53,407 nt of DNA from a virus: positions 1 through 53,407 of IMG/VR virus record IMGVR_UViG_3300036859_000475, one strand, 5' to 3'. Below are positions 7,235 to 49,432 of this stretch, piece after piece. The translations under genes and the position numbers were made by a program. Below the pieces are notes generated by a model. The model saw only the letters and a list, made by a program, of their open reading frames with translations, ran no database searches and was not told the DNA's origin. Each line of letters starts with the position of its first letter. The stretch's first letter is position 1.

Positions 7235-8581
7235 ATGCTCACCACCACCGACGCGGCAGACCGCGTCAAGGAACTGAAGACGGCAGCGGCCACGCTGCTG
7301 GCCGAGAACCAGGAGATCGCCCGCACCGTCAAGACGGAGGAGATCGACGGGCCGGACGGCAAGAAGATCCCCGTGCCCGTCATCGATGCCGAGCGCAAGG
7401 AGCGCTTCGACGCCAACATGGCGCAGCTCCGCGAGATCCAGGCCGAGGTGAAGCGCTTCGAGGAGCTCGGCGGCTTCGAGGGCTGGGCGTCGGCCTCCAC
7501 GGGCCAGACGGCCAACGCCGCCAACGCGGCTGCGGCAGGCATCACCAACGAGGGGCCGGTGCGCGCCAAGTCCGTGGCCCAGCTCCTGTTCGAGTCCGAG
7601 GAGTACAAGGCGTACAAGGACGCCCCGCGCTCCTTCGGCTCGGAGGCGCGCCTGGACGTCAAGTCGCTATACGCGACCAAAGACGTCTACACCGACCTGC
7701 CCACCGGGGATCCGACGCGCTTCGGGCAGATCTTCCGCGACGCCCTGGTCCCCCTGGCTCACCGCACCTTTCGGGTGCGCTCACTATTCCCCGTCGTGCG
7801 GACCACGGCCAACCAGATCGAGTTCTTCCGCGTGACGGGCTTCGGCTCGGGTGCCTCCACAGGTCCGGCGGGCATGGTGGCCGAGCGCGACGGGGCGGCC
7901 TTCGCCCTCAAGCCGCAGTCCAACCTGTCGGTGGAGGGCGTCACGGCCCTGGTGCGCACGATCGCTCACTGGGAGTCCGCGCACCGCAACGTTCTGGCCG
8001 ACGAGCCGCAGCTGCAGGGCATCATCGAGAACGAGCTCCTGTACGGGCTGCAGCTCACGGAGGACTGGCAGATCCTCAACGGCGACGGGACCGGAGAGAA
8101 CCTGCTCGGCATCCTGTCCACGCCGGGCATCCAGACCTACGCCAACACCGGAGCCGGCGGGGAGGCGGGCCCCATCGACGCCATCCGACACGCCATCACG
8201 CTCGCCTTCCTGGCCAACTACGAGGCGACGGGGATCGTGTTGACCCCGACCACATGGGAGCAGTTCGAGGTGGCCAAGGACAACGAGAATCGTTACCTGC
8301 TATTCGCCGTGGCGGGTATGCCTGGCTCTGAGCCGCGCCTGTGGCGCCTGCCCGTCGTGGTCACTCCAGCCATGCCCGCAAATACCGGTCTCGTCGGTGC
8401 CTTCGGCCTCGGCGCGACGCTGTACGACCGCGAGCAGGCGACCATCCGCGTGGCCGACCAGCACGCCGACTACTTCCTCCGAAACGCCGTGGTCATCCTG
8501 GGCGAGGAGCGGGCGGCGCTGGCGACCAAGCGGCCGGAGTCCTTCGTCAAGATCACGAATTTGAACGACGTCACTCCGTGA
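7235..8581 (+). CDS. Major capsid protein (HK97 fold)
   Basis: 448 residues. The N-terminal 110 or so are helical and charged, like a delta/scaffold domain that the protease would remove. The rest fits the HK97 capsid family: an N-arm, a long spine helix, and the motifs ENELLYGLQL, LNGDGTGENLLGIL and a terminal VILGEERAALATKRPESFVKI-like region. ATG 7235 has a good Shine-Dalgarno (GAAGGAG) and its own promoter. A terminator-like hairpin follows the gene, as expected for a highly expressed product. Confidence 0.95.
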   Translation: MLTTTDAADRVKELKTAAATLLAENQEIARTVKTEEIDGPDGKKIPVPVIDAERKERFDANMAQLREIQAEVKRFEELGGFEGWASASTGQTANAANAAAAGITNEGPVRAKSVAQLLFESEEYKAYKDAPRSFGSEARLDVKSLYATKDVYTDLPTGDPTRFGQIFRDALVPLAHRTFRVRSLFPVVRTTANQIEFFRVTGFGSGASTGPAGMVAERDGAAFALKPQSNLSVEGVTALVRTIAHWESAHRNVLADEPQLQGIIENELLYGLQLTEDWQILNGDGTGENLLGILSTPGIQTYANTGAGGEAGPIDAIRHAITLAFLANYEATGIVLTPTTWEQFEVAKDNENRYLLFAVAGMPGSEPRLWRLPVVVTPAMPANTGLVGAFGLGATLYDREQATIRVADQHADYFLRNAVVILGEERAALATKRPESFVKITNLNDVTP

Positions 8582-8611
8582 TCCGGTAAGCACCCTCGTT
8601 GGGTAGCTGAG

Positions 8612-8641
8612 GAGGCGGCTCCGTCCGAGCGGGGCCGTCTC
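8612..8641 (+). terminator. Terminator-like hairpin after capsid gene
   Basis: An 11-base stem (GAGGCGGCTCC against GGGGCCGTCTC, two G-U type pairs) with an 8-base loop, followed by a pyrimidine run CCTTTCCCT. It lies 30 bases after the capsid stop. Confidence 0.65.
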
Positions 8642-8643
8642 CC

Positions 8644-8672
8644 TTTCCCTGGACGCGGCGGCGCGGTAGTGT
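8644..8672 (+). promoter_or_regulatory. Possible promoter for leaderless gene 8680
   Basis: A -10 box TAGTGT at 8667-8672 lies 7 bases before the GTG start at 8680, the distance expected for leaderless transcription. The -35 (TTTCCC at 8644) is poor. Confidence 0.35.
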
Positions 8673-8679
8673 CTGCGCA

Positions 8680-9096
8680 GTGGACGCGCGCGCGCCCTGC
8701 CCGATCTGCGGGGCTCCCGGCGGCAACTGTGTCGGCGAGCAACCGGAGCCGAGCGCGCCTCCGGCGTTTTACGAGTGGTCCGAGGAGGCAGGCATGGACA
8801 GACCCACGATGGCCCGCAATCCCATTGGTGTTCACACGCCGGTGTACGTGCATGAGGAGGTGACCGAGGAGCTCGTGGTGTATGGCGGCTCCACGACGCG
8901 CGTGCTCAAATGGGCGCGCGGCGCGAGGATCACCGTCGCCGAGGCACTGGCGCACGGTGTGCCGCTGCGCGACGCCGAGGGCTTCGAGCTGGACGAGGAA
9001 GGCGAGCGGGTGGCCGACAAGCCCGCAAAACAAAGGGCGAAGCCAGAGATGGAGACGCAGGAGGTCAAGGCACCCCTGCGTAAGAAGGCAAAGTAA
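8680..9096 (+). CDS. Hypothetical protein with N-terminal zinc knuckle
   Basis: 138 residues. It begins with CPICG...NC, a zinc-binding look, followed by a compact domain and a Lys/Glu-rich tail. It follows the capsid gene after a terminator and has no Shine-Dalgarno; a -10 box sits 7 bases upstream, so translation is probably leaderless from GTG 8680. Function unknown. A head-associated role is possible from position. Confidence 0.65.
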   Translation: MDARAPCPICGAPGGNCVGEQPEPSAPPAFYEWSEEAGMDRPTMARNPIGVHTPVYVHEEVTEELVVYGGSTTRVLKWARGARITVAEALAHGVPLRDAEGFELDEEGERVADKPAKQRAKPEMETQEVKAPLRKKAK

Positions 9097-9132
9097 TGAC
9101 AAGGGGCACTACGGCGAAGAGAGGGGAAGCTG

Positions 9133-9312
9133 TTGCGTGATCCTAATTGGCTTGCTCAAAAGGCCATGCTTGAGGCGGAAGCCATGCGTGAGGCGTATGC
9201 ACTAGGTCACGCGGGCGAGGGAACGTGTCTGCTTTGCGGGCGGCTCATGAACGAGCATCCTCCCGAGCGAGTATTGTCCGCTGATCCGCGCCTATGTCCC
9301 TCGATGCCTTGA
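9133..9312 (+). CDS. Small CxxC protein
   Basis: 59 residues from TTG 9133 with GAGG 10 bases upstream. It has a helical start and a C-terminal CLLCGR...C zinc-ribbon-like motif. It overlaps the next gene by 19 bases. No function can be assigned. The TTG start is the weak point. Confidence 0.5.
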   Translation: MRDPNWLAQKAMLEAEAMREAYALGHAGEGTCLLCGRLMNEHPPERVLSADPRLCPSMP

Positions 9313-9899
9313 GGGAAGCCTGCGACGTGCTGATCTCCGAGGCCGAGTTCACAGCGCCTCACGCCGAATGCGCCAAGCCCCAATGGTGGACGGCTCACGA
9401 CTCGGAATCCACCGAGAACGAGGTCATCGAATTGCTGGCGGCGCTGGTGCGAGCCCTGCAGCCGGAAGTCGTCGTGGAGTCGGGATCGGGCTTCGGCTAC
9501 ACGACCGAGGCCATGGGTCAGGCTCTCATGCGCAACGGCCACGGCTGCCTGTGGTCTTTGGAGATCGATGGTGGTAGGGCGGCCGAGGCTCGTGGACGTT
9601 GTGTTGGTCTGCCGGTGGTCCTCGTCGAGGTCGACTCGCTTGACTGGAGGCCGGATCGCCTCGTCGACCTCGCGTTCTTCGATTCGGCCTACGAGGCGCG
9701 TATCCAGGAGTTCCGACGCTGGCATCAGGGGGGCTGGCTGCGCAAGGACGGGATCGCCTGCTTCCACGACACGACCTCTGGCCTTCGCGGCCATCATGTC
9801 GACATGCAGCGCGAGGTCGGACTGCTCACGGCGGCTGGCATGATTCGTCCCGTGTTCTTAAGAACTCCGAGGGGACTAGCGATATGCGAGATCCTGTGA
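9294..9899 (+). CDS. SAM-dependent methyltransferase
   Basis: A class I (Rossmann) methyltransferase of 201 residues, resembling the small-molecule/sugar O-methyltransferase group. Motif I is VVVESGSGFGYTT (60-71), followed by the acidic end of strand 2 (LEID, about 89-92). DLAFFDSAYEARI resembles the strand-4 motif. It lies directly before two glycosyltransferases, so it may methylate a sugar or amino group added to virion proteins. No target-recognition domain of a DNA methyltransferase is present. Confidence 0.75.
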   Translation: MSLDALREACDVLISEAEFTAPHAECAKPQWWTAHDSESTENEVIELLAALVRALQPEVVVESGSGFGYTTEAMGQALMRNGHGCLWSLEIDGGRAAEARGRCVGLPVVLVEVDSLDWRPDRLVDLAFFDSAYEARIQEFRRWHQGGWLRKDGIACFHDTTSGLRGHHVDMQREVGLLTAAGMIRPVFLRTPRGLAICEIL

Positions 9900-9924
9900 C
9901 GGAGGCCGACGAGGTACGGCCCTC

Positions 9925-10662
9925 GTGATCGTGGTCGGTGCCACGATGCTCATGGAGCGAGACGCTCCCGAACACATGGCGTGGCTGTCCCACGCCAAGG
10001 ACATGATGGCGGGGGCCGACCTCGCATGGTTCCTCGCCATCCAGTACGACCCCGGCGACGACCACAACTATTGGGATGCCAGAGCTGTGGCAGAGCGCAT
10101 GGAGGAGGACGTCGGCGTCCCGCTCGACTTCCAGCGGTTCGCCATTGAGGGACATCGCTGGACGACGCGTGAACGGCTCATCGGTATTACAATGGGACGC
10201 AACCTTGTTCGAGAGCACGCGCTGCGTGACACCGACGCTACCCACGTCCTGTTTCTGGACACCGACATCGAGCCCGACCCGGAATGCATACCCAAGCTGC
10301 TGGAGGTCGATCATCCGGTGGCGGGTGGAGAGATCCCGAGCTATTGCTTGTCTGGGTTGACCGTGTTCTGCTCAGGGGGACCGTCGCATCTACATTCCGC
10401 GGACGTCGACGGTGCCAAGGATGACTATTGCAAGCACTTCAGCTTTCCGACGGAGGAGCACTGGGATACTGCGGGGTTTCTGCTTGTGCGACGTGACGTA
10501 CTCTCTCAGGTCGCCTGGCGCTGGAATCCCGACGACGACATGACCGACGATCCGTGCTTCGCCCAGGACGTGGAGCGTGCGGGGTTCGGCAAGACGTGGG
10601 TGCGGAAGGACTGCATCGGTCAGCATCGTCCCCCGATCCTCGTGCCGGTCGAGGCCCGCTGA
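9925..10662 (+). CDS. Glycosyltransferase, GT-A fold
   Basis: 245 residues with a GT2-like layout: an N-terminal strand, a nucleotide-binding region and a DxD metal motif in LFLDTDIEPDP (D112-D114). HWDTAGFLLVRRDVL near 175-190 resembles the acceptor-site helix. Expected to use a nucleotide-sugar donor in the cytoplasm. The neighbours (methyltransferase upstream, second glycosyltransferase downstream, capsid-area location) suggest modification of head or tail proteins; the acceptor cannot be read from sequence. GTG 9925 was chosen for conservation of the first strand. Confidence 0.8.
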   Translation: MIVVGATMLMERDAPEHMAWLSHAKDMMAGADLAWFLAIQYDPGDDHNYWDARAVAERMEEDVGVPLDFQRFAIEGHRWTTRERLIGITMGRNLVREHALRDTDATHVLFLDTDIEPDPECIPKLLEVDHPVAGGEIPSYCLSGLTVFCSGGPSHLHSADVDGAKDDYCKHFSFPTEEHWDTAGFLLVRRDVLSQVAWRWNPDDDMTDDPCFAQDVERAGFGKTWVRKDCIGQHRPPILVPVEAR

Positions 10663-10829
10663 TGGACGTACTCGCCTGGGTGATCGTGTGGATCTTCTGG
10701 TCAGCACTTTGCTTAATAATTGTGATCGGAAGCATCAAGGACATCGGACTAGTCGGCGTCCTCTGCTTCCTCTGCGTTGTCAGCGCTACGGCATCTGTTG
10801 CATGGGCGCTTGTTCATCTGGCGAATTGA
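10662..10829 (+). CDS. Small two-helix membrane protein
   Basis: 55 residues, almost wholly hydrophobic, with two likely membrane segments. ATG 10662 overlaps the stop of the glycosyltransferase (TGATG). Between two glycosyltransferases it might anchor or assist them, but that is only positional. Confidence 0.6.
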   Translation: MDVLAWVIVWIFWSALCLIIVIGSIKDIGLVGVLCFLCVVSATASVAWALVHLAN

Positions 10830-10857
10830 TCTTCACCGTCTTGGCCATGCGCGTGCC

Positions 10858-12060
10858 ATGAAGGTCCTCTACGTGACGGCCGATCTCGGCGGCTGTCGTT
10901 GGTATCGCTGTCTGCTTCCCGCTTCTGAACTGGCCAAGGCGGGCCACGAGGTCCTCGTCGCTGGCCGCCTGATGACCGTGCAGGGCGGTGAGATCGCCGC
11001 GCCGGACCCGTACTGCCCGGACGTCGTGCAGCAGCGGGACTTCGACCTCGTCGTGCTGCAGCGCTGGATGCACCAGGAGGCGCCGCGCGTCATCGCCCGC
11101 GCGCGCTCCACCGGGCAGGCCGTGGTCAACGACGTTGACGACTGGTTCTTCGGCATCCCGACGGCCAACGCCGGCTTCGCCGGGACGCACCAGCGCACCG
11201 ACCCGACGCACAATGTCGGTCACTATCGCAAGGTGCTGGCGGCCTCCTCGGCTCTGACTGTTTCCACGCCCTACCTCGCCAAGCGCCTCGAATCTCTCGG
11301 TGTGCCGATCTACGTTCTGCGCAATCGCATCGACGTCGACCGCTACCCGCCGCGCGAAGCGTGGGACGGACCGCTGCGCGTGGGCTGGGTAGGCAACGTG
11401 AACTATCGCGCTCCCGGCGACCTTGCGCAGATCCGCGGCGTCATCGGGCCCTGGATGCGTGACCATCCCGAGGCGCGCTTCACGCACGTGGGCTCGGTGT
11501 CCTTCCTCAAGGACTTCTGCCATCACGACCTCGCGCGCTGGGAGCGTACGGCCCAGGTCTTCTGCGAGCACCTGGGTATAAATCGCGCTCGTTACGACGC
11601 GCGTCCCTTGTGCGCTATCGAAGAGCTGCCTGCGGCACTGAGTGAGATAGACGTGGCGCTCGCTCCGTTGGAGGATTGTCCCTTCAATCGGGCGAAGTCC
11701 TGGGTCAAGTGCGCCGAGGCCGGGGCGTCCGGTATCCCCTGCGTGGCCTCCAATCTCCCGGAGTATCGACACTTCGGCCCGACGGCGCTTGCTTGTAGCG
11801 CAGCGGATTGGCGTGCTGCCCTCGATGTTCTTGTTGATCCGGCCACTCGTACCGCAGCCGGATTAGCGGCTCACCGGCGCTCGGAGGAGCTGTCGATCTC
11901 GACCGGCTGGCCCGCCTGGACGTCGGCTTACATGCAGATCGTCAGTGAGGCGAGGGCAGCCCCCGTACTCGCGCCGGCGACGTCCAACGGGGAGGTGGTT
12001 CGTTTCCCGAAGCGGCGGGCAAGGGTCCGCCGCGACAAAGTGATTGACCCGCGCCCCTGA
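10858..12060 (+). CDS. Glycosyltransferase, GT-B fold (GT4-like)
   Basis: 400 residues. It starts MKVLYVTADLGGCRWYR with the N-terminal nucleotide-fold strand, has VNDVDDWFF near 95-100, and a C-terminal donor domain with LRVGWVGN (about 178-185) and WVKCAEAGASGIPCVASNLPEY, the usual E-x7-E-like sugar-nucleotide site of GT4 enzymes. The C-terminus is basic. Start ATG 10858 is preferred over upstream in-frame codons because the fold begins there. The last codons contain the -35 box of the next promoter. Confidence 0.82.
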   Translation: MKVLYVTADLGGCRWYRCLLPASELAKAGHEVLVAGRLMTVQGGEIAAPDPYCPDVVQQRDFDLVVLQRWMHQEAPRVIARARSTGQAVVNDVDDWFFGIPTANAGFAGTHQRTDPTHNVGHYRKVLAASSALTVSTPYLAKRLESLGVPIYVLRNRIDVDRYPPREAWDGPLRVGWVGNVNYRAPGDLAQIRGVIGPWMRDHPEARFTHVGSVSFLKDFCHHDLARWERTAQVFCEHLGINRARYDARPLCAIEELPAALSEIDVALAPLEDCPFNRAKSWVKCAEAGASGIPCVASNLPEYRHFGPTALACSAADWRAALDVLVDPATRTAAGLAAHRRSEELSISTGWPAWTSAYMQIVSEARAAPVLAPATSNGEVVRFPKRRARVRRDKVIDPRP

Positions 12061-12072
12061 CGCCCTTACTCT
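12044..12072 (+). promoter_or_regulatory. Promoter upstream of accessory structural genes
   Basis: TTGACC at 12044-12049, 17-base spacer, TACTCT at 12067-12072. The -35 is inside the last codons of the glycosyltransferase gene and the spacer holds its stop. A 30-base leader with CAGGAGC leads to ATG 12103. Confidence 0.65.
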
Positions 12073-12102
12073 CAGCACGTCGGCCGACGACAGGAGCGCG
12101 CG

Positions 12103-12513
12103 ATGCCAACTCTCATGCTGCACAAGCGGGCGGACAAGTCCGGGGACAGGGAACCCGGCGCAGCCTGGCCGGTGTCCCACGTGGAGCTTCTCAGCGAGGT
12201 CCCCGACGAGTGGGCGTTCAGCGAACAGTTCGTCAAGCAGGGCGTGGCCGAGGGCTGGATCACCTACCGGGGCGACGGCGTGGACTACGAGGTGCACCCC
12301 GACCCGCTCGGAGCGATGGGTAACAGCGGGGAGATCACGCTCAAGCTCCCGGGAGACACGCTGGTTCTCAGCCTGGTCAAGGACGGCGAGCCGGTCGAGG
12401 TGGCCTACCTCATCCTCGTGCCGCCGGTGCCCGTGGGCTACAGGGCCGTGGACGAGAGCGAGCCCCTGGGCCTGCGTGCCAACCACGACTTCAAATGTGA
12501 GGCCGTCAAGTGA
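12103..12513 (+). CDS. Hypothetical structural-like protein
   Basis: 136 residues, acidic and beta-rich, with no recognised family. It is the first gene after its own strong-looking promoter, which suggests an abundant virion protein such as a head fibre or decoration protein; this is inference. Shine-Dalgarno CAGGAGC precedes ATG 12103. Confidence 0.65.
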   Translation: MPTLMLHKRADKSGDREPGAAWPVSHVELLSEVPDEWAFSEQFVKQGVAEGWITYRGDGVDYEVHPDPLGAMGNSGEITLKLPGDTLVLSLVKDGEPVEVAYLILVPPVPVGYRAVDESEPLGLRANHDFKCEAVK

Positions 12514-12950
12514 GCGGCCTCAACGTCGTGGCCAACATCGCCCTCGGGCGCTTCGTGGAGAAGATCGCCGACGACGCGACCAAGATTCTAGTGTTGCTGC
12601 TGAGGGTGGTGCAGGCTGACGCCACATTGCGCGACCACGACGACCTCGCCGCCGCGCTCGGAGCCAACACCGAAGCGAACTTTACGAACTACGCTAGAAA
12701 GACGGGCATCACCGCCACCATCATTGTGGACGACACCAACGACCGCGTCGACGTGGACATTCCCGATCAGACGTGGCTCGTGGCTGGGGGCGCGACGAAC
12801 AACGGCCTCGTCAAGCTGGGCATCGCATACGAGGAGTCGGCCTCCGACGCCGGACGGGTTCCGCTGACGTGGCACACCTTCGACGTCACCACCGACGGCT
12901 CGGACCTCGTGGCGCAGATCGCGGCGGCGGGCTTCGCCCGGGCGAGCTGA
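12510..12950 (+). CDS. Hypothetical structural-like protein
   Basis: 146 residues from GTG 12510 (GTGA overlap). The N-terminal helix is hydrophobic, then a mixed region contains DRVDVDIPDQTW and a Thr/Asp-rich C-terminal half. No function assigned. Together with its neighbours it probably forms a virion-surface set. Confidence 0.65.
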   Translation: MSGLNVVANIALGRFVEKIADDATKILVLLLRVVQADATLRDHDDLAAALGANTEANFTNYARKTGITATIIVDDTNDRVDVDIPDQTWLVAGGATNNGLVKLGIAYEESASDAGRVPLTWHTFDVTTDGSDLVAQIAAAGFARAS

Positions 12951-12987
12951 GGTGAGGGCGGGCGACCCCGCTCTCGGGAGCTAGATC

Positions 12988-13389
12988 TTGTCCTCCACGC
13001 CGGCCTTCCCCGTCACTCCCCGCCTCGGCCGGGCCATCCTGTCGGCGGCCACTACCGACCGCACCGGGGCAACGACGCCGAACATCAAGGACATCCTGAC
13101 CGGGGCGGCCACCGGCACGCGCCTCGACGAGCTCGTGGTGCAGGCAGACGGCGACCCGGCCGACTGCACGATCCTGTGGTTCATCCACAACGGAACCGAC
13201 TACCGACTGTTCGACGACTGGGACATCGGGGATGCCGCCGCAGCCTCCACGACGGTGTCCGGCTACCGCGAGCGGCGGACGTACGCGAACCTGTGGCTGC
13301 CCTCGGCTTCCTTCAAGATCGCGGCCGCCATCACCGTCGCCCCCACATCGGGCAACGTCAACGCCTGGGTCCTGGGGGCTGATTTTTGA
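12988..13389 (+). CDS. Hypothetical structural-like protein
   Basis: 133 residues from TTG 12988, with CGGGAG about 8 bases upstream. It looks like a compact beta protein (alternating hydrophobic strands, ILWFIHNGTDYRLFDDW in the middle, VLGADF at the end). No family named with confidence. Virion role inferred from context. Confidence 0.62.
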   Translation: MSSTPAFPVTPRLGRAILSAATTDRTGATTPNIKDILTGAATGTRLDELVVQADGDPADCTILWFIHNGTDYRLFDDWDIGDAAAASTTVSGYRERRTYANLWLPSASFKIAAAITVAPTSGNVNAWVLGADF

Positions 13390-13871
13390 GTCTCGCAGAG
13401 ATTACGACGAAGCGTTGTAAGCGCTGTGGCTGTACTAAATCGCTTGATGAATTTCATCGGCATCCAAACCCCAAAGATCAGCGGCAAACGCGATGTAAGA
13501 GCTGTGCGCTCGAAGCTGCTAAGGAACACTACGCACTCAATCGCTATGACCGCATCGCAAAGCAGCGTATATGGGCAGAGGCCAATAGGGACAAGGCGCG
13601 ACGATATCGTCAATCCTCTAGTTTGCGGAAGAAGTACGGGCTCACACTTGAGGACTATGAAGGGATGTTGGTCAAACAGGATGGCAGATGCGCGATCTGC
13701 CAAACGCGGGAACCTGGAAGACGAAACTTTTGGTTCTGCGTGGATCATGACCACCTGACCGGCCGTGTTCGGGGATTGTTGTGTTGTGCCTGCAATGATG
13801 GGTTAGGTCGATTCCGTGATTCATCTGCGCTGCTTCTCGACGCGTTCCGGTATTTGGCGGCCGACTTCTAG
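13386..13871 (+). CDS. Endonuclease VII-like HNH nuclease (free-standing)
   Basis: 161 residues. Two CxxC pairs near the N-terminus (CKRCG, CKSC) form a zinc finger; the catalytic region has CAICQ, CVDHDHLTGRVRG and CCACNDGLGRF, the signature of recombination endonuclease VII/HNH enzymes. The coding sequence is visibly more AT-rich than neighbours, which suggests recent arrival as a homing-type selfish gene. The TTG start overlaps the previous stop (TTGA). Confidence 0.88.
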   Translation: MSLAEITTKRCKRCGCTKSLDEFHRHPNPKDQRQTRCKSCALEAAKEHYALNRYDRIAKQRIWAEANRDKARRYRQSSSLRKKYGLTLEDYEGMLVKQDGRCAICQTREPGRRNFWFCVDHDHLTGRVRGLLCCACNDGLGRFRDSSALLLDAFRYLAADF

Positions 13872-13886
13872 TGCTCGGGTGAGCGT

Positions 13887-14588
13887 GTGCCGCTGCCCGG
13901 CCTGTTCGACGTAGTCCGCCCGGACGCCACGCTTCGACTCCAAAACATAGTGGTCTTGACGTCCGGCACGCGCTACGTCCGTCCGAAAGAAGTCTCGGCC
14001 CTGGTTGTGGAGGCAATCGGCGGCGGCGGCGGCGGCGGGGGTGGTGCCACTGCCGCAGTGAGTGCTTCGGCCGGCGGCGGGGGCGGCGGCGGGGCCTTTT
14101 CGCTCATCTGGATTCCCGACCCGCTGCCTTGGTATGCCTACGCCATCGGGGGAGGCGGGGCCGGGGGGGCGGCGGGCAACAATAATGGAGTCGCAGGCGG
14201 AGATACGACCTTCGGTTCACCATCGGTGTGCACGGCTAAAGGCGGTGCGTTCGGAGCGGGAAGCACCGCCGGCACGACGGTCAATCTAGCGGTTGGAGGT
14301 GAAGGCGGCGATGCTGCGCTTGGGGTCGGTACGCTGCTGCTCGCGGGCAGTGGCGGAGGATGTGGCACCACGCTCAGCGGATCCTTAGCCAACACCGGAG
14401 CCGGGGGTGCCGCCGGTCGGGGAGGGGGGATTCGCAGGGAGCGCACGGCGAGCGGTAACGGGCTCGCCGGCAATCAGTACGGCGGCGGAGGTGGCGGAGG
14501 CAGCGTGCTGAGCGGGTCTGGCGCCGCTGCCGGGGGCGCAGGTGCCGCCGGAGTCATCGTGATCTACGAGTACGGCCCGGAGTGCTGA
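13887..14588 (+). CDS. Glycine-rich virion protein
   Basis: 233 residues with long Gly runs (about 46-55, 65-72 and 200-208) after an ordered N-terminal domain of about 40 residues. Such sequences form polyglycine-II sheaths or tail/fibre tips in other phages. It ends in a beta strand VIVIYEYG. It lies directly before the 20-residue-repeat protein with a TGATG overlap, so the two may form one appendage. GTG 13887 start. Confidence 0.7.
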   Translation: MPLPGLFDVVRPDATLRLQNIVVLTSGTRYVRPKEVSALVVEAIGGGGGGGGGATAAVSASAGGGGGGGAFSLIWIPDPLPWYAYAIGGGGAGGAAGNNNGVAGGDTTFGSPSVCTAKGGAFGAGSTAGTTVNLAVGGEGGDAALGVGTLLLAGSGGGCGTTLSGSLANTGAGGAAGRGGGIRRERTASGNGLAGNQYGGGGGGGSVLSGSGAAAGGAGAAGVIVIYEYGPEC

Positions 14589-15646
14589 TGGCGGGAACCG
14601 TCGTAAACCAAGGCCTGGTCGTCGACTCGCTCACCAACGCCCAACTGTTCGGTCTGCTGCGCCCGTGCGCCGTCACCGACCTGGCGCTGGTCTTCCAGCC
14701 CGTCGTCGTGTCCATCTCGCAGGCCCAGGAGACCGACACGGCCCAGGCGATCACGATTGCGCGCGTGCTGGCCGTCGGGCAGTCCACCGAGGCGGACGTT
14801 GCCCAGTCGGTCACTCCGCTTCGCGTCGAGGCAATCGGGCAATCCACCGAGAGCGACACGGCCCAGGCCGTGGCCGCCGTGCGCGCGGTGCCGCTCGCGC
14901 AGGCCGAAGAGGCGGATTCGGCGCGCTCCGTCGCGCCGCTGCGCCTGGAGCATCTGGGGCAGGTGACGGAGATCGACTCGGCGCAGGTCGTCACGGCCCA
15001 ACGCGTTCTGCCGACAGCCCAGGCCACGGAGAGCGACCAGGCGCAGGCTGTAACGCACTACAAGTCCGGCCGGGTGGGCACGGCCATAGAAGCCGATCTG
15101 GTCAACGCCGTGCGACCCGTGCGCTTGAAGGTCTTCGCCCAGGCCAACGAGACGGACGTGGCGCAGACGGTGCGGCCCGCTCACGTCCTGGGCATCGCGC
15201 AAGTCCTGGAAGCCGACGTGGCCCAGCTCATCAAGGCCGTCCGCGCCGTGTCCCAGGCCAAGGAGACCGACTTCGCGCAGATCATCACGCGCGGATTGGG
15301 GGGTCAGGCGGGGACGGCTACGGAGCAGGACGCAGCCACGGTGATCGTCGTGCTGCGCCGCCTCGGTCTGGGCACGGCTCTCGAAACCGACACGGCGCAG
15401 TTTCTCGGCCCGCAGCACCGGGTCGAATTGGAGGAGGCGGTCGAGGCCGACCTCGCGCAGACGATCCGCTTTTACGTCTCCGTGGGGCGGGCGCTGGAAA
15501 TCGACCACGCCATCGGGCTCGTCGTGGCCCAGGCCCGGTGGTCATTCGGCGCCCCGTTCGCGAAGTGGTCTGTTGGGCCGCCTCGCCTCAGCCGTATCGA
15601 GCAGGAGGAGCAAGAGAAATGGCTCGTGGGCCTGCCCGTCCTATAG
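14588..15646 (+). CDS. Protein of fourteen 20-residue tandem repeats
   Basis: 352 residues. From residue 48 to 309 it consists of repeats with consensus ExDxAQxVxxxRxxxxGQAx, period 20 except two of 18. The N-terminal 47 residues and C-terminal 43 residues are not repetitive; the latter holds two short RWSFGAPFAKW-like stretches. Repeats of this ExDxA type occur in phage structural proteins, where they are thought to form elongated beta structures. Probably a head or tail surface fibre. Confidence 0.75.
   Translation: MAGTVVNQGLVVDSLTNAQLFGLLRPCAVTDLALVFQPVVVSISQAQETDTAQAITIARVLAVGQSTEADVAQSVTPLRVEAIGQSTESDTAQAVAAVRAVPLAQAEEADSARSVAPLRLEHLGQVTEIDSAQVVTAQRVLPTAQATESDQAQAVTHYKSGRVGTAIEADLVNAVRPVRLKVFAQANETDVAQTVRPAHVLGIAQVLEADVAQLIKAVRAVSQAKETDFAQIITRGLGGQAGTATEQDAATVIVVLRRLGLGTALETDTAQFLGPQHRVELEEAVEADLAQTIRFYVSVGRALEIDHAIGLVVAQARWSFGAPFAKWSVGPPRLSRIEQEEQEKWLVGLPVL
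14729..15514 (+). repeat. Coding tandem repeat, 14 units of about 60 bp
   Basis: The 60-base units encode the ExDxAQ repeats. They are diverged at DNA level but keep the period, with 54-base units at the 9th and 13th positions. Confidence 0.85.
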
Positions 15647-15653
15647 TTGAGGC

Positions 15654-15959
15654 GTGCTGATTCTTTCGTCCCTTTCCTCGGAGTTCGTGAAGGTTCCCGT
15701 GCGGGCCGAGGAGAACGGTGCGGTCGTCAACCCGACGGCGGACGTAGTCGAGCTGGCGTTCGCCCCCGGGCTCACCGAGCCGGCCGGCACGGCGTGGAAC
15801 GTCGCCGAGTGGGAGACGGCCGGGGCAGACTACTTCGCCCGGATCGTCGTGGGTCCGCTGGGCGTGGTCCTGGCCGAGGGCGACTGGGGAGTGTGGGTCC
15901 GGGTGACCGACACGCCTGAGCGCCCCGTGCATCGGGCGGGGACTCTGACGATCACATGA
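15654..15959 (+). CDS. Small head-tail region protein
   Basis: 101 residues, beta-rich, from GTG 15654, with an ATGA overlap into the connector gene. Resembles in size and composition the small Ig-like or decoration-type proteins found before head-tail adaptors. No firm family. Confidence 0.6.
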   Translation: MLILSSLSSEFVKVPVRAEENGAVVNPTADVVELAFAPGLTEPAGTAWNVAEWETAGADYFARIVVGPLGVVLAEGDWGVWVRVTDTPERPVHRAGTLTIT

Positions 15960-16555
15960 GCCCGATCACGCCCGTGCCGATCCTGACCGTCCCCGAGCTC
16001 GAGCGCTACATGAGGGCGTGCTTCTCGGAGGAGGACAACGTAGAGGCGGCGGTCGTAATCGCCGCCGTGCAGTCCGAGCTGGAGGCCAAGCTCGGGCGGC
16101 CTGTCATGGTACGCAGCTTCGTGGACGTCATCGATCTAGGCCGGCCCGCGTGGAGCGAGTTCGTTTTCCTACGTCCGAACCTGTACCTGCCCAACACGCC
16201 GGTCAAATCCGGCACGCTCGTCGTCGAGGCGGACGGCGTCACGCAGGATCTCTCGGTTGAATGGGTGCGCACCTGGGGTATTCGCGACTATCGCGGGGCT
16301 ATCGGGACGGACGGCACCGTGACCGCCACCTACGACGCGGGATTCGACGGCCGAGCGACGGCCAACGCTGCGCTCCTACTAGCCGTCAAGCGCGCCGCGC
16401 AGCGGGAGATGAGCTGGCGTGAAGATCAGACACAGGGCACGAAGCGAACCTCAGACGAGGGCTACTCCGTGGAGTCCGTGCAGCCCGAGGGCTTCTTCAC
16501 CGCCGCCGAGCTCAACGGGCTCTCCCGTTACCGCCGCCGGCGGGTGAGCGCGTGA
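15956..16555 (+). CDS. Head-tail adaptor (gp6-like connector)
   Basis: 199 residues. A helical N-terminus (LTVPELERYMRACFSEED...AVIAAVQSELEAKLG) and a middle beta insert, then a long C-terminal helix, match the gp6/gp15 head-tail connector type that docks under the portal. Followed by head-closure, gp10-like and tail-terminator genes in canonical order. Confidence 0.75.
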   Translation: MSPITPVPILTVPELERYMRACFSEEDNVEAAVVIAAVQSELEAKLGRPVMVRSFVDVIDLGRPAWSEFVFLRPNLYLPNTPVKSGTLVVEADGVTQDLSVEWVRTWGIRDYRGAIGTDGTVTATYDAGFDGRATANAALLLAVKRAAQREMSWREDQTQGTKRTSDEGYSVESVQPEGFFTAAELNGLSRYRRRRVSA

Positions 16556-16899
16556 GGCTGGACCGCTTCGTGCTCGTGATCGAACGCGACGGCGAATCGC
16601 AGTCCAGCGACGCCGAGGGCGTCCCCGTCATCGAGCCCATGTCGAGCACGCGCGTGCGCGGCTCGCTGTCCATGCTCTCGGCGCGCGAGGCCTTCCGCGC
16701 GCAGCACTTCGGCGAGCACATCGAGGCGGCCGCCGGGGTGCCCAACGGGACGGCCGTGGACCACCGCGACCGCGTCGTGCTGGACGAGGCGCTGAATCCC
16801 TGCGCGCCATCACAGCTCGTCGGTTCATGGACGGTGGAGGCTGTGCGGCACACCCGGCCGCGACTGCGCTTGCTCCTGCGCCGGAGCGCGCACCCCTGA
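16552..16899 (+). CDS. Head-closure / stopper-like protein
   Basis: 115 residues from GTG 16552 (GTGA overlap). A small beta-barrel-looking protein in the slot where head-completion (stopper) proteins are coded. Assignment rests mainly on gene order. Confidence 0.6.
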   Translation: MRLDRFVLVIERDGESQSSDAEGVPVIEPMSSTRVRGSLSMLSAREAFRAQHFGEHIEAAAGVPNGTAVDHRDRVVLDEALNPCAPSQLVGSWTVEAVRHTRPRLRLLLRRSAHP

Positions 16900-18365
16900 T
16901 GCCCGACGACGTCTTCACGCGGGCAGGCCACAACATCGGCGTCGTGCTGCGCGCGGGCGTGGAGAAACCCGAGCCGCTCTTGAGCAAAATTGGCATCGAG
17001 CTGGTGAACCGCATCCGCGTCATCCTGAGCCAGCCGGGCTCTGGGCGGACCTACGCGCGCAGGGGAGTCGTGCACGCGGCCTCGGCCCCGGGCGAGCCAC
17101 CGGCCACCGACACAGGAAAGTACAAGACGTCCTGGGACTGGCGCATCGACGGATCGGTCCTGAGCGTCGGCACGCCGGATGTGCGCGGTTGTCTGCTCGG
17201 AAGCCATCATCATCGCGTGACGACGACGCGCGGGAGCGTGCCGATCGGTCAGATCGCCGCCGGGGACCGCGTTCTTACCCAGACAGGAGAATGGCGCACC
17301 GTAGTCGGAACCAGTCGCTACAAGGCCAGTGAGAAGCCGAGCATGGTTACGCTGCGCGTGCAGGAAAGCGAGAGAGTTCAGCATCGACTTGAACTCACCC
17401 ATGATCATCGGGTGCTCGTTGGTCGTGATGACCATAATGCTTGGATACCGGCTGGTCAGCTTCGCGTTGGAGACAATGCATATATTCGAGTGAGGCGGCC
17501 GACCAATCAGGTTCACTGGTCATGCGTCAATTGCGGAGGGCCTCGCAGGTATCATCAGGGACGCGCCCAGCGGTTTTGCTCAACGTCTTGCCGAACGACG
17601 TTCTATTGCAGAACTGGAACCAACCCTTCCATCGGGACTCGACGTACTTCGGCCGCTCGTCTCAAAATGAGGTTGCGCGCGTTGGCCAAACTCAAGGCCA
17701 GGCCTGAGCTGCATCCGTCGCGACTCGTAGCAGCCAGGGGCTACCAGACGAGCTACGAGTCCCAGGTAGAGAAATGGCTGGACGCACGGGGCGTGAATTA
17801 TGAAAAACAGGTGCCCATCGGCTCCTGGATCGTGGACTTTCTTCTCGTGGACCGATTGGAGATCATCGAGGCTGACGGAGCCTACTGGCATCAGGATCAA
17901 GCGCGCGATCTGGTTCGTGATGCTGGCTTGCTGGCGGCTCTTCCGGGGGCGCGCATTACGCATTTGCACTTTCACGATCCCCGGTTCACGCCAAATCTCG
18001 ATCCCGAACCTATGCCTGGAGTAACCTACGTCATCTGCAATCCCGGCCCGAGTTCATATGTTGACGGAACAGAATTTCGTCCAGCCTCGGTTGTGGATGT
18101 GGAAGCCTGGACGTATGAACCTAGTTCGCATCCGCGGGCAAGTGACAACGCTATGTTGTACGACATCTCGGTCGAAGGTGTTCACTCTTTTTTGGCCAAT
18201 GGCGTTCTGATCAGCAACAGCTGGCTTGAGTTTGGAACTTCGCGCATGGCACCGCGTCCCCACCTGCGCCCGGTGGTGGAGGGCGCCCGCGAGAAGATCA
18301 CCGAGCTGTTTGCCAAGGGCATTGCCGAGATACAGGAGCGAACGATCAGGACCCTGCGCGCATGA
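16899..18365 (+). CDS. HK97 gp10-like connector protein interrupted by an intein
   Basis: 488 residues as translated. Residues 1-97 and 441-488 together form a 145-residue HK97 gp10-like head-tail joining protein: the joined sequence reads VGTPDVRG then SWLEFGTSRMAPRPHLRP, the family's hallmark EFGT...PRP region. Between them lies a 343-residue intein (98-440) that should excise itself. ATG 16899 overlaps the previous stop (TGATG). The mature protein would sit at the head-tail interface. Confidence 0.9.
   Translation: MPDDVFTRAGHNIGVVLRAGVEKPEPLLSKIGIELVNRIRVILSQPGSGRTYARRGVVHAASAPGEPPATDTGKYKTSWDWRIDGSVLSVGTPDVRGCLLGSHHHRVTTTRGSVPIGQIAAGDRVLTQTGEWRTVVGTSRYKASEKPSMVTLRVQESERVQHRLELTHDHRVLVGRDDHNAWIPAGQLRVGDNAYIRVRRPTNQVHWSCVNCGGPRRYHQGRAQRFCSTSCRTTFYCRTGTNPSIGTRRTSAARLKMRLRALAKLKARPELHPSRLVAARGYQTSYESQVEKWLDARGVNYEKQVPIGSWIVDFLLVDRLEIIEADGAYWHQDQARDLVRDAGLLAALPGARITHLHFHDPRFTPNLDPEPMPGVTYVICNPGPSSYVDGTEFRPASVVDVEAWTYEPSSHPRASDNAMLYDISVEGVHSFLANGVLISNSWLEFGTSRMAPRPHLRPVVEGAREKITELFAKGIAEIQERTIRTLRA
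17190..18218 (+). mobile_element. Intein with Vsr/DUF559-like endonuclease
   Basis: The intein begins at Cys98 (block A, CLLG...GDRVLT) and has block B with T167-H-D-H170. Block F/G is YDISVEGVHSFLANGVLISN ending at N440, followed by Ser441 as the +1 extein residue. The penultimate residue is Ser, not the usual His. Inside lie a Cys4 zinc module (C209, C212, C227, C231) and a PD-(D/E)xK domain of the Vsr/DUF559 kind (E287, D313, E324-A-D326-G, H331). Base composition is more AT-rich than the flanking extein. Confidence 0.92.
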
Positions 18366-34440: not shown

Positions 34441-35390
34441 AGGTTGGCTCCCTCTTTTCGGGAATCGGAGGGCTCGACCTTGGGCTTGAGCGGGCCGGCA
34501 TGGAGATCGTCTGGCAGTGCGAGAGCGACCCCTATTGCCGCGCCGTCCTCCGAAAGCACTGGCCCCACATCGAACTCTTTGGCGACGTGCGGACCCTCTA
34601 CGCTCCCCGAAGGGTTGATCTCATCTGCGGCGGTTTCCCCTGCCAGCCAGTCAGCCAAGCTGGACGTCGACGAGCCCAGGCTGACGATCGTTGGCTCTGG
34701 CCCGAGATGGCCCGTGTTCTTCGGGACCTACGACCCCGCTATGTCCTTGTGGAAAATGTCCCAGGGCTCCTTGCTCGAGGAATGGGAGACGTCCTCGGAG
34801 ACCTGGCCTCCCTCGGGTTCGATGCAGAGTGGGAGAGCCTTCCGGTTGCCGCGTTTGGTGCCCCGCACTTACGAGACCGGGTGTTCATCTTCGGCTATCG
34901 GCCGCCCGAGACTGTTGGACGGCCCGGAAAGCAACGGCGGGTTTTGGCCGACACCGAGAGCGGTGGACAACGGCCAGATCAAGACAACCCGGACAGATCC
35001 TCGGAACAAAACCTCGAGTCCGTCTCTCAGCGAGGCAGCGCAGATGTGGCCTACTCCCAAGGCGAGCGCAGCGAACTACGGCCGACCGCGGGAGAGCGAC
35101 TGGGGGGATCTCCAAGCGGCCGTGTTGTGGCGCACACCCCAAGCGCGGGACGGGGACCAGAGGGGGCCGAGCTCGCCCGAGCGCAGAAAGGAGCAGGGAC
35201 ATTCGGTGTCCCTGCACGATCAGGTTGGTGGGCAACTGAACCCGACGTGGGTCGAGTGGCTCATGGGATTCCCTCTCGGGTGGACCGTCTTAGAGCCCTC
35301 GGAAACGCCGTCGTCCCGCAAGTCGCGGAATGGATAGGAAGACGAATCATGGCAGCGGACGAACGCTCATCGGAGCGGGAGGGGCGATGA
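34437..35390 (+). CDS. DNA cytosine-C5 methyltransferase
   Basis: 317 residues. Motif I SLFSGIGGLDLG, catalytic motif IV GGFPCQ (C69), motif VI ENV (E106), motif VIII RDRVF (R146, R148) and motif X RLRALGNAVVPQVAEWIGR are all present. It transfers a methyl group from S-adenosylmethionine to C5 of cytosine. The target-recognition region (about 165-250) is low-complexity. It probably protects phage DNA from restriction or prepares it for further modification. A second frame inside this gene also looks coding (34444-35337). Confidence 0.93.
   Translation: MKVGSLFSGIGGLDLGLERAGMEIVWQCESDPYCRAVLRKHWPHIELFGDVRTLYAPRRVDLICGGFPCQPVSQAGRRRAQADDRWLWPEMARVLRDLRPRYVLVENVPGLLARGMGDVLGDLASLGFDAEWESLPVAAFGAPHLRDRVFIFGYRPPETVGRPGKQRRVLADTESGGQRPDQDNPDRSSEQNLESVSQRGSADVAYSQGERSELRPTAGERLGGSPSGRVVAHTPSAGRGPEGAELARAQKGAGTFGVPARSGWWATEPDVGRVAHGIPSRVDRLRALGNAVVPQVAEWIGRRIMAADERSSEREGR
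34444..35337 (+). CDS. Overprinted WPTP-type protein nested in methyltransferase gene
   Basis: An open frame of up to 297 codons on the same strand, offset by one base from the methyltransferase. It is not random shadow: it shows YDPAMSLWKMSQGSLLEEW, TWPPSGSMQSGRAFRLP, WPTPRAV, WPTPKAS, WRTPQARDGD and LNPTWVEWLMGFPLGWT. This pattern I know from phage proteins coded next to cytosine methyltransferases. The start is uncertain (TTG 34444 is the first candidate). Function unknown, perhaps linked to the methyltransferase. Confidence 0.6.
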   Translation: MAPSFRESEGSTLGLSGPAWRSSGSARATPIAAPSSESTGPTSNSLATCGPSTLPEGLISSAAVSPASQSAKLDVDEPRLTIVGSGPRWPVFFGTYDPAMSLWKMSQGSLLEEWETSSETWPPSGSMQSGRAFRLPRLVPRTYETGCSSSAIGRPRLLDGPESNGGFWPTPRAVDNGQIKTTRTDPRNKTSSPSLSEAAQMWPTPKASAANYGRPRESDWGDLQAAVLWRTPQARDGDQRGPSSPERRKEQGHSVSLHDQVGGQLNPTWVEWLMGFPLGWTVLEPSETPSSRKSRNG

Positions 35391-37712: not shown

Positions 37713-38045
37713 TCAGGAAGGCTCCGGTCCCCAGGAATGCAAGCTCCACCCGATCGCCTCGGCGAAGGCCGGGTCGTTCGTCACGAGCTCGTGGTGGGCG
37801 CGGCAGCACGCCTTGACGTTCGACTCGTCGGTGATCGAGCCGCCTCGCGCCCGGGAGCGAAGCTCGTGGACGTCGACGGATAGCGCTCGACAATCGGGGA
37901 ACTCGCAGATGGGGCGCTCGGCCAGAACCCGGCGTACGAGCGGGACGCGCTGCTCTCGGTAGGTTCGCGCCATTTTCTCCGAGCGATGTCGCAGGGCGGA
38001 TCTTCGGCGCAGCGTAGAGAACCTTTTCAAGCCGGACCGTCTCAT
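37713..38045 (-). CDS. HNH endonuclease
   Basis: 110 residues from ATG 38045. Basic N-terminus, then CEFPDC, DVHELRSRARGGSITDESNVKACCRAHHELVT: an HNH nuclease core with the histidine pair and the asparagine. Could nick DNA in packaging or replication. ATG overlaps the stop of a 10-codon leader frame (ATGA). Confidence 0.85.
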   Translation of the reverse strand: MRRSGLKRFSTLRRRSALRHRSEKMARTYREQRVPLVRRVLAERPICEFPDCRALSVDVHELRSRARGGSITDESNVKACCRAHHELVTNDPAFAEAIGWSLHSWGPEPS

Positions 38046-42232: not shown

Positions 42233-42531
42233 TGGGCAAGCCCGTCCGGACCGACGAGTTCGGCTGGCGGTTGAAGACCATCCGGGAGCGCGAGCAGGTC
42301 GGATACGGGTCTGTGCAGCGGCGCTCGCGCGGCGTCTACCTCGCGCGATGCGCGGACGACGCGGGGAACTTCGACGAGTGCGACGCGTTCTCGACGCTGG
42401 CCGCTGCGAAGCGCTGGGTGAAGGAGTCCGGCGACGAGACGTGGACTTGGGGGCGCTGGGAACGCGACCCCGCGGCCGACGCCTGGTACTGCCAGTCGAC
42501 GTCCGTGATCGAGCGGGAGGTGGAAGCGTGA
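42232..42531 (+). CDS. Hypothetical protein
   Basis: 99 residues from ATG 42232 (TGATG). Trp-rich, with repeated short strands and one helix (TLAAAKRWVKES). No family recognised. Lies directly before the ArdC-like gene with a GTGA overlap. Confidence 0.6.
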   Translation: MGKPVRTDEFGWRLKTIREREQVGYGSVQRRSRGVYLARCADDAGNFDECDAFSTLAAAKRWVKESGDETWTWGRWERDPAADAWYCQSTSVIEREVEA

Positions 42532-43322
42532 CGACGACAGACAAGGCGAGCGCGCTGCTCGCCGAGCTGAAGGACGGCATCGAGCATGCCCTGAGCGAGG
42601 ACGGCTGGCGAGAATACCTGGCCGTCGGGGCCCGCTTTCATCGCTACTCGCTCAACAACGTGATCCTCATCCACACGCAGCGCCCGGACGCGACTCGCGT
42701 GGCGGGCTTTCGGTTGTGGCAATCGCTCGGGCGCCAGGTCCGCAAGGGGGAGAAGGGCATCGCCATCCTCGCCCCGGTCGTCCGCAAGGTCGAGGAGGAC
42801 TCGGGCGAGCAGTCTCGCGCCGTGGTCGGATTCCGGTGCGCCCACGTCTTCGACGTGGCGCAGACCGACGGAGAGCCGCTGCCGGACCCCGTCCTGCCGC
42901 AGGAACTCGACGGCGAGGCGCCGGCAGCGCTCGCGGAGTTAGAGAGGTTCGTCGGGGAGATCGGATTCACCCTTCGTCGCGGCGACGCCGGTGCCGCGAA
43001 CGGCTGGATGGACGCTCGCGAGAAGCTGATCCTGGTCAGCGACGCGCTCGATCCGGCCACGGCCTTCAAGACGCTGGTTCACGAAGTGGCGCACGCGCTG
43101 GTCCACGTCGACGCCGGTGTGGAGCATGGGTTGCAGGAGCTCGAGGCCGAGTCGTGCGCGTTCGTCGTCTGCAAGGCGCTCGGGCTGGACGCGTCGAGGT
43201 ATTCGTTTCGCTACCTGGCCTCGTGGAGCGGTGGCGATCCCGAGCAGGTGATGAAGGCGGGCGAGCGCGCGCTGCGCGCGGCCGACCGCATACTCGGCGC
43301 GCTCTCGAAGGAGGCGTCGTGA
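42528..43322 (+). CDS. ArdC-like antirestriction protein
   Basis: 264 residues from GTG 42528. The N-terminal half (about 20-115) has FHRYSLNNVILIHTQRPDATRVAGF and GRQVRKGEKGIAILAP, typical of the ArdC single-strand DNA-binding domain. The C-terminal half has a zinc-protease motif HEVAH (185-189) and a downstream ELEAESCAFVV with a candidate third ligand. ArdC proteins protect incoming DNA from restriction. Fits the neighbouring DUF2958 gene. Confidence 0.85.
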   Translation: MTTTDKASALLAELKDGIEHALSEDGWREYLAVGARFHRYSLNNVILIHTQRPDATRVAGFRLWQSLGRQVRKGEKGIAILAPVVRKVEEDSGEQSRAVVGFRCAHVFDVAQTDGEPLPDPVLPQELDGEAPAALAELERFVGEIGFTLRRGDAGAANGWMDAREKLILVSDALDPATAFKTLVHEVAHALVHVDAGVEHGLQELEAESCAFVVCKALGLDASRYSFRYLASWSGGDPEQVMKAGERALRAADRILGALSKEAS

Positions 43323-48557: not shown

Positions 48558-49432
48558 GCGACCTGGCCCCGCGCTACCCGATCTACATTCCGTCCAAGGG
48601 GCGCTCGGACGCGCTGCTGGCGGCGCGGATGTTCGACGCCGACGCGGTGCCGTACCACGTCGTGGTGGAGCCGCAGGAGGCCGAGGCTTACGCGGCCGTC
48701 GTCGGAGGCGAGCGCGTGCTGTGCCTGCCGGAGTCGGGCCGAGGCCTGGTCTACTCGCGCACGTGGATCAAGCGCCACTCGGTCGAGCGCGGCGAGGCGC
48801 GGCACTGGCAGTTCGACGACGACGTGACGCAGATGATGCGGCTGCACCTGAACCACAGGCTGCCGTGCGACGCGGCGATCGCGCTGCGCGCCGCCGAGGA
48901 CTTCGTCGATCGATACGAGAACGTCGCGCTGCCCAGCTTTAACAGCGAGTTCTTCTTGCCGACGACGGGGGCTTTCTCGCAGAAGTGGCCGCCGTTCTTC
49001 CTCAACTTCCGCTGCTATACGTGCTTCCTGATGCTCAACGCGATCCCGAACGAGTGGCGCGGTCGATACAACGAGGACACCGACATGACCCTGCAGGTGC
49101 TGGCCGACGGCTGGTGCACGATCTTGTTCAACGCGTTCTGCATGCGCACGCCGGCGACGATGACGCACCGCGGCGGCCAGACCGACATCTACGAGGGCGA
49201 CGGCCGGCGCGAGATGGCGCGAGAGCTCGAGCGCCGGTGGCCGAGGGTGGTCAGCGTCAAGCGAAAGTTCGGGCGCCCGCAGCACCACGTGGACTGGAAG
49301 AAATTCGACACGCCGCTGCGGCCGAAGCCCGGTGTGGTCATCCCGGACGGGGACCCGTACGGCCTCGCGCTCGCGGCCAAGCGCGAAGTGAGGAGCGCGG
49401 CCCTGCGCGAGCTGCTGGAGCGGAGCCAGTGA
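48554..49432 (+). CDS. TET-associated-type glycosyltransferase
   Basis: 292 residues from GTG 48554. RYPIYIPSKGR near the start, YHVVVEPQEAEAY, RTWIKRHS, HWQFDDDV (DDD 88-90, metal/sugar site) and WRGRYNEDTDMTLQVLADGWCTILFN match the TET-associated glycosyltransferase family of actinophages. Members are thought to glycosylate hydroxymethylated cytosine in phage DNA. No TET/JBP oxygenase was found in the window, so the acceptor here is uncertain. Confidence 0.85.
   Translation: MSDLAPRYPIYIPSKGRSDALLAARMFDADAVPYHVVVEPQEAEAYAAVVGGERVLCLPESGRGLVYSRTWIKRHSVERGEARHWQFDDDVTQMMRLHLNHRLPCDAAIALRAAEDFVDRYENVALPSFNSEFFLPTTGAFSQKWPPFFLNFRCYTCFLMLNAIPNEWRGRYNEDTDMTLQVLADGWCTILFNAFCMRTPATMTHRGGQTDIYEGDGRREMARELERRWPRVVSVKRKFGRPQHHVDWKKFDTPLRPKPGVVIPDGDPYGLALAAKREVRSAALRELLERSQ

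Follow-up and report, generated by a model that had tools for sequence, protein, structure and literature searches.

Virion glycosylation by mycobacteriophages has already been published: in Che8, Corndog, and Myrna, phage-encoded glycosyltransferases (GTs) were linked to glycans carried by the capsid and tail tube proteins (Freeman et al. 2023, as cited in PMC11256854 and PMC12363180). A different precedent is the gene order of Hiyaavirus (Streptomyces phages Hiyaa and Galactica), in which an annotated methyltransferase, a small protein here called P8, and a repeat protein lie in that order between the capsid and the head-tail adaptor; a search that left out most subscription journals found no publication on Hiyaa's genes. 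Here we describe the interval between the capsid and adaptor genes of IMG/VR virus record IMGVR_UViG_3300036859_000475, whose full 53,407 bases, of unstated completeness, constitute the window analyzed. From the sequence alone, a model had read a block in this interval as a system that builds surface fibers and glycosylates them. We find that the block combines two modules that can be told apart, a probable fiber module and a sugar cassette.

Comparison with Hiyaavirus

The window shares the Hiyaavirus order given above. The Hiyaa proteins matched P8 and the repeat protein of the window (REP) with E-values of 4e-24 and 1e-11, respectively, within an 11-protein set and of 8e-15 and 2e-5 by tblastn in the phage collection. 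Judged by these homologies, the window contains a Hiyaavirus-type module, defined as a P8 homolog followed, between the capsid and adaptor genes, by an ExDxAQ repeat protein. The two arrangements differ in that a small protein (P9), an endonuclease, and a Gly-rich protein separate P8 from REP in the window, whereas Hiyaavirus has no recognizable GT and a methyltransferase without detectable relation to that of the window. The Hiyaa repeat protein, with 1110 aa and long N-terminal domains, is also unlike the window REP.

A probable fiber module centered on P8 and a repeat protein

P8 (12510-12950; this and the other genes of the block and its flanks are on the + strand) is a probable fiber-anchor protein that matches phrog_26662 (E 1e-23), a family without a function in PHROGs. 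The P8 profile found 163 relatives in viral contigs, 80 of which were kept; two lacked a callable open reading frame (ORF) and were dropped, leaving 78 loci with 63 distinct P8 sequences. A repeat protein, recognized by three or more ExDxA sites at regular spacing, was encoded no more than 6 kb downstream of P8 in 36 of the 78 loci (28 of the 63 distinct sequences), compared with none of 80 capsid loci and none of 26 GT loci (0 of 106 together), where any ORF of more than 150 aa anywhere on the locus was allowed to count. Capsid upstream and adaptor downstream of P8 were both present in eight of the 78 loci. In L197 (related loci are designated by L numbers), the capsid gene is followed by P8, a repeat protein of 1335 aa, and the adaptor, with the capsid and adaptor confirmed by PHROGs.

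A structure model of P8 was built from an alignment of the window protein with those of 36 of the 78 loci (pLDDT 89, pTM 0.83). When the model was compared with the PDB by Foldseek, the phage GP4 fiber/fiber-tail adaptor ranked first (E 5.6e-3, probability 1.00), and the top nine rows of the VIA ranking were all phage fiber, connector, or baseplate proteins with Z-scores from 7.6 to 5.1 (best, 8jou_a at 7.6). Twelve matches with E ≤ 1e-3 were obtained in a viral structure library, including a structural protein of phage 7-7-1 with a TM-score of 0.68, and the P8 and P9 sequences themselves gave no credible match in the PDB. The predicted fold resembles those of the GP4 fiber/adaptor (8jou), the Bas63 connector (9mt4), and the phage 7-7-1 tail fiber (9rkv), from which P8 differs in being a separate small protein and in sharing only 5-12% sequence identity. 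The stretch aligned with the model covers residues 13-139 in chain A of 9rkv, taken here to be the 7-7-1 long tail fiber; residues 1-120 of that fiber are reported to anchor it to the baseplate (PMC12796354). A Z-score below 8 may mirror a common structural arrangement, so the resemblance to phage fiber-anchor and connector proteins is suggestive of a fiber-anchor role for the modeled fold and does not place P8 firmly in any of these groups.

The 20-residue ExDxAQ repeat protein REP (14582-15646) is a probable fiber shaft that matches phrog_14065 (E 2e-13), also without a function in PHROGs, and Hiyaa gp13. It contains 13 ExDxA sites, mostly 20 residues apart, and its autocorrelation at lag 20 was 0.25 (the highest of 1000 shuffles reached 0.15). 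A scan of viral contigs with the single REP protein returned no relatives. The Gly-rich protein (13887-14588; 30% Gly) resembles a fiber tip, with matches to PF21722 (37 bits, above the cut-off; E 4e-9) and to the tail family phrog_863 (E 5e-27). The small fiber-module protein P7 (12103-12513) has relatives just upstream of P8 in L161, L180, L189, L147, L198, and L199, all found in viral contigs, and none in the phage collection. P9 (12988-13389) is a possible fiber partner with a relative in Pseudanabaena phage Pam2 (E 6e-7) that lies beside a gene annotated as tail fiber. In the Pam2 record (L116:10381-13883), genes neighboring this P9 relative bear implausible product names, which were taken as label errors and not used. 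Hiyaa gp9 (E 0.01 in the 11-protein set) was not counted as a P9 relative. The P8 and REP results offer likely roles, fiber anchor and repeat shaft, for phrog_26662 and phrog_14065, and the cultured Streptomyces phages provide a test bed for these roles.

The sugar cassette

The cassette begins with a predicted S-adenosylmethionine-dependent methyltransferase of the Methyltransf_24 type (9294-9899; PF13578, 31 bits against a cut-off of 26.3), for which sugar or glycan methylation is proposed. It is followed by GT1 (9925-10662), a putative GT-A-like (GT2-like) glycosyltransferase with weak matches to phrog_1574 (E 4.5e-5) and PF00535 (16.5 bits, below the cut-off of 23.3). In GT1 the D112-x-D114 motif is invariant in the two sequences aligned; the protein is 58% identical to a relative in L003, and a related ORF occurs in L007. 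Both relatives adjoin GT4, with an epimerase and a methyltransferase beside them in L007. A 55-aa membrane protein (10662-10829; hydropathy 1.6-2.7 across all 19-aa windows printed) separates GT1 from GT4.

By sequence, GT4 (10858-12060) is related to known GT4 enzymes and is predicted to be a GT-B-like glycosyltransferase. It belongs to the phrog_7162 family (E 2e-28) and is 53% identical to its L003 relative; Pfam models scored below their cut-offs, and a profile of the family made from 12 sequences matched the solved glycosyltransferase 3c48 in the PDB (E 5e-7). 3c48 is MshA, itself a GT4 enzyme. In genome contigs the GT4 profile found nine loci, every one of them in an actinobacterial record (Streptomyces, Micromonospora, Modestobacter, or Goekera). 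The phrog_7162 GTs of Arthrobacter phage Mimi (gp173) and Streptomyces phage Zuko (gp5) are homologous to the window GT4 and, unlike it, do not lie between capsid and adaptor; a UDP-glucose dehydrogenase is encoded in both neighborhoods, as gp4 in Zuko and gp163 in Mimi. The window GTs were not detectably related in sequence to the Che8 virion GTs gp108-gp110 (the lowest E in a profile comparison was 0.07), which are encoded at the right end of that genome rather than beside the capsid.

The capsid-adaptor interval in related phages

The interval is bounded on the left by an HK97-type major capsid protein (7235-8581), which matched the HK97 capsid 1ohg in a PDB profile comparison (E 2e-63) and shares 44-48% identity with the capsids of L003, Gordonia phage Chidiebere, and Brevibacterium phage Cantare, and on the right by a head-tail adaptor (15956-16555; phrog_442, E 2e-13). 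A scan with the single capsid protein gave no matches, and a capsid profile gave 80 loci. Most of these yielded no adaptor match; the adaptor and capsid profiles were iterated on their own loci at E-values up to 1e-3 or 1e-4, and a miss is no proof of absence. Seventeen loci of the capsid family, some of which look like near copies, had an adaptor on the same strand (the window, L003, L004, L005, L050, L072, L074, L075, L080, L084, L086, L094, L095, L096, L106, L109, and L110). Capsid and adaptor are 0.7 kb apart in Cantare and 2.5-8.9 kb apart in the remaining 16; long intervals are thus common among phages with this type of capsid. The sequence-only reading had contrasted the window with phages that place connectors right after the capsid gene; genes do intervene, and the length of the interval is not peculiar to this genome.

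The contents of the interval vary. L003 encodes four GTs, a 993-aa fiber-like protein (matching tail and structural PHROGs), a metalloprotease-like protein, and endonucleases; L008 encodes a GT together with a beta-helix/tail-spike-like protein and other tail-like proteins. L050 has an epimerase, a TOD1-type GT, a methyltransferase, two GT2s, and GT4, and inspection of its interval revealed no fiber-type gene. L072 and L074 carry a 649-aa protein that we read as ribonucleotide-reductase-like together with small proteins, plus an endonuclease in L072. The earlier placement of sugar genes at a structural locus is borne out by these relatives. A recurring home of sugar cassettes may help in finding phages with possibly glycosylated particles; a search that left out most subscription journals found no publication on GTs in this interval. 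L050 also encodes, immediately behind its capsid-side gene, what we read as a sliding-clamp-like protein (L050:11665-12507).

Separability of the two modules

To place GT4 relative to the capsid we used 50 records: the window, L003, and L008, plus 47 loci chosen, as the longer contigs, from the 80 capsid loci; distances were taken from coordinates, the shorter way round for one record. GT4 was present in 13 of the 50 and lay inside the capsid-adaptor interval in four (the window, L003, L008, and L050). Among 34 GT loci, which include L031 and L032 without a callable GT ORF, a same-strand adaptor lay 0-6 kb downstream of GT4 in nine, abutting it in L050, L124, and L125; many of the other 25 are short, or their adaptor was possibly missed by the profile. 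Profiles of the methyltransferase, membrane protein, P7, P8, P9, Gly-rich protein, REP, and the small protein P13 found no relatives in the first 114 sequences searched. Fiber genes are present without any GT of the window's families in Hiyaavirus and L197. We rejected inheritance of the block as a single unit because of the result in the 114 sequences and because the P8 loci held no relatives of GT1, GT4, the methyltransferase, P9, or the Gly-rich protein. The GC content at third codon positions (GC3) was 0.87-0.92 for the capsid, P7-P9, and REP, and 0.77-0.80 for the methyltransferase, GT1, and GT4; the Gly-rich gene (0.71) and the endonuclease (0.55) were lower still. In this single genome, the differences would fit a later arrival of the sugar cassette and the endonuclease.

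Proposed function and alternative explanations

The reading we prefer, to which we give about an even chance, is a surface fiber and a late-expressed virion-glycosylation cassette in an accessory capsid-adaptor site. The interval would then be an accessory site holding two modules. P7, P8, P9, the Gly-rich protein, and REP would build a surface fiber, with P8 anchoring it to the particle, REP serving as the shaft, and the Gly-rich protein as the tip; the methyltransferase, GT1, the membrane protein, and GT4 would make a methylated glycan carried by a virion protein. Action in late infection is suggested by the packing of the cassette genes as if in one operon with the capsid and adaptor. Gene position points to the head or neck as the site of the fiber, and the solved fold relatives of P8 are baseplate, fiber, or connector parts. 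That the fiber module builds a surface fiber is likely, that the GTs act on some virion protein is evenly balanced, and that this fiber is the glycan acceptor is doubtful. Improbable in our view is the fullest version, in which one late locus encodes, assembles, and, through a dedicated and co-transcribed cassette, methyl-glycosylates a head- or neck-anchored ExDxAQ-repeat fiber of 20-residue repeats while a separate enzyme of the same genome glycosylates the DNA. What we observed is the gene content, packing, homologies, P8-repeat linkage, and P8 fold resemblance; the presence of the products in the particle, the synthesis of a glycan, and its attachment target are inferences.

Several observations weigh against this reading. 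Relatives of GT1, GT4, and the methyltransferase were not found in the P8 loci, the six sugar-type genes of L050 stand in an interval where no fiber gene was seen, and GT4 is at least 16 kb from the capsid in nine of the 13 records that have it. In most records inspected, these distant copies sit among terminase, nuclease, and ParB-like genes, a setting that fits work on DNA equally. The best Z-score of P8 is below 8 and its best PDB E-value only 5.6e-3, the REP structure model is unreliable (pLDDT 42), and no proteomic or glycan data were found for these phages. Since GTs are found without fibers and fibers without GTs, glycosylation of these fibers by the GTs is not established. The interpretation from sequence alone is supported in its fiber part, through the fold resemblance of P8 and its association, in many phages, with proteins built of 20-residue repeats; its claim that the cassette glycosylates these fibers is left doubtful by L050, with sugar genes and no visible fiber gene, and by Hiyaavirus and L197, with fiber genes and no such GTs.

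Also counting against the preferred reading is the presence, far from the block, of a TET-associated GT (TAGT; 48575-49177, E 7e-35, within 48575-49432) and a C5 cytosine methylase (34437-35390, E 4e-43); together with an equally distant RGP-like GT (about 49400-50220), they make sugar on DNA a serious rival. In this main alternative, which we consider unlikely, the GTs and methyltransferase would modify phage DNA bases, a hypermodification against restriction, and their position beside fiber genes would be incidental. By our reading of the translations, freshwater-type relatives do place GT4 near terminase, nuclease, RuvC-like, and ParB-like genes. TAGT, however, was found in the window and in 0 of the 12 other GT4 records, which may be incomplete, so GT4 does not travel with TAGT. 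Homologs of thymidylate-synthase-type hydroxymethylases were likewise found in 0 of 12 records, which may be fragments (control positive in nine of 14), and a TET/JBP oxygenase in 0 of five, a weak result since the control matched 0 of 14. It is rather unlikely that the interval is a mere landing site for unrelated cargo in which sugar and fiber genes co-occur by chance. The different cargo of other capsid relatives (the reductase-like protein of L072 and L074 and the L072 endonuclease) would fit such a site, as would the lower GC3 of the cassette and endonuclease (0.55-0.80) compared with P7-P9, REP, and the capsid; yet sugar genes recur in the interval of the window, L003, L008, and L050, as do fiber-type genes in the first three of these, in Hiyaavirus, and in such P8 loci as L197. 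Some phages are known to encode GTs that act on the surface sugars of the host, and the 55-aa membrane protein, encoded between GT1 and GT4, could be a helper in altering the host surface for superinfection exclusion or receptor change. We regard this as quite improbable: the cassette genes are packed within the late structural operon, and the membrane protein, in contrast to the GTs, has no relatives in the loci searched.

Layout of the block and additional features

The genes of the window run, from the left, terminase, portal with a Mu F domain, protease, capsid, block, and head-tail adaptor, followed by small connectors, tail tube, tape measure, tail proteins, and amidase (terminase, protease, tail tube, and tape measure by our own reading). 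From the capsid through the gene after the adaptor, intergenic gaps range from -19 to +98 nt, and the capsid, block genes, and adaptor are packed as if in one operon. A scan of 8400-16000 for sites of the sigma-70 type, one of several promoter types, found 0 with 0.7 expected by chance; the promoters of their own that had been proposed for the block genes gain no support from the scan or from the packing into the adaptor. Every item listed in that proposal is present on the + strand between capsid and adaptor, and the list missed an endonuclease VII (13386-13871; PF02945, 79 bits against a cut-off of 23.6), a probable mobile insertion.

The 7-kb span first given to the accessory block (8680-15646) holds from about 9133 onward. 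The small Cys-containing protein P1 (8680-9096), identified by profile matches, is probably a core gene of the capsid group and lies outside the accessory part, which begins at about 9133 because P1 relatives directly follow the capsid in four relatives (L003, L004, L005, and L050). P1 profile matches occurred in 61 of 114 sequences searched, a count that includes duplicates and distant matches not checked individually; many were on the opposite strand, and only those directly after the capsid were used. A possible 59-aa protein with a TTG start (9133-9312; GC3 0.55) is predicted as an ORF only. P13 (15654-15959), an ORF that overlaps the adaptor by 4 nt, had no match in protein-family searches.

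Elsewhere in the window, a tail-completion-type protein (16827-18365) is interrupted by an intein, an insertion matching Hint and DUF559; its L003 homolog (16038-16595) is uninterrupted at the same site. Read from translations, an intein-like insertion breaks the protease gene of L003 (L003:1997-4582) and not that of the window, and a terminase-like protein in L163 (L163:3357-5714) has an apparent intein-like insertion. The window also encodes an ArdC-like anti-restriction protein, part of which may be a metallopeptidase (42348-43322), and a single tRNA-Thr (cgt) gene (37751-37838).

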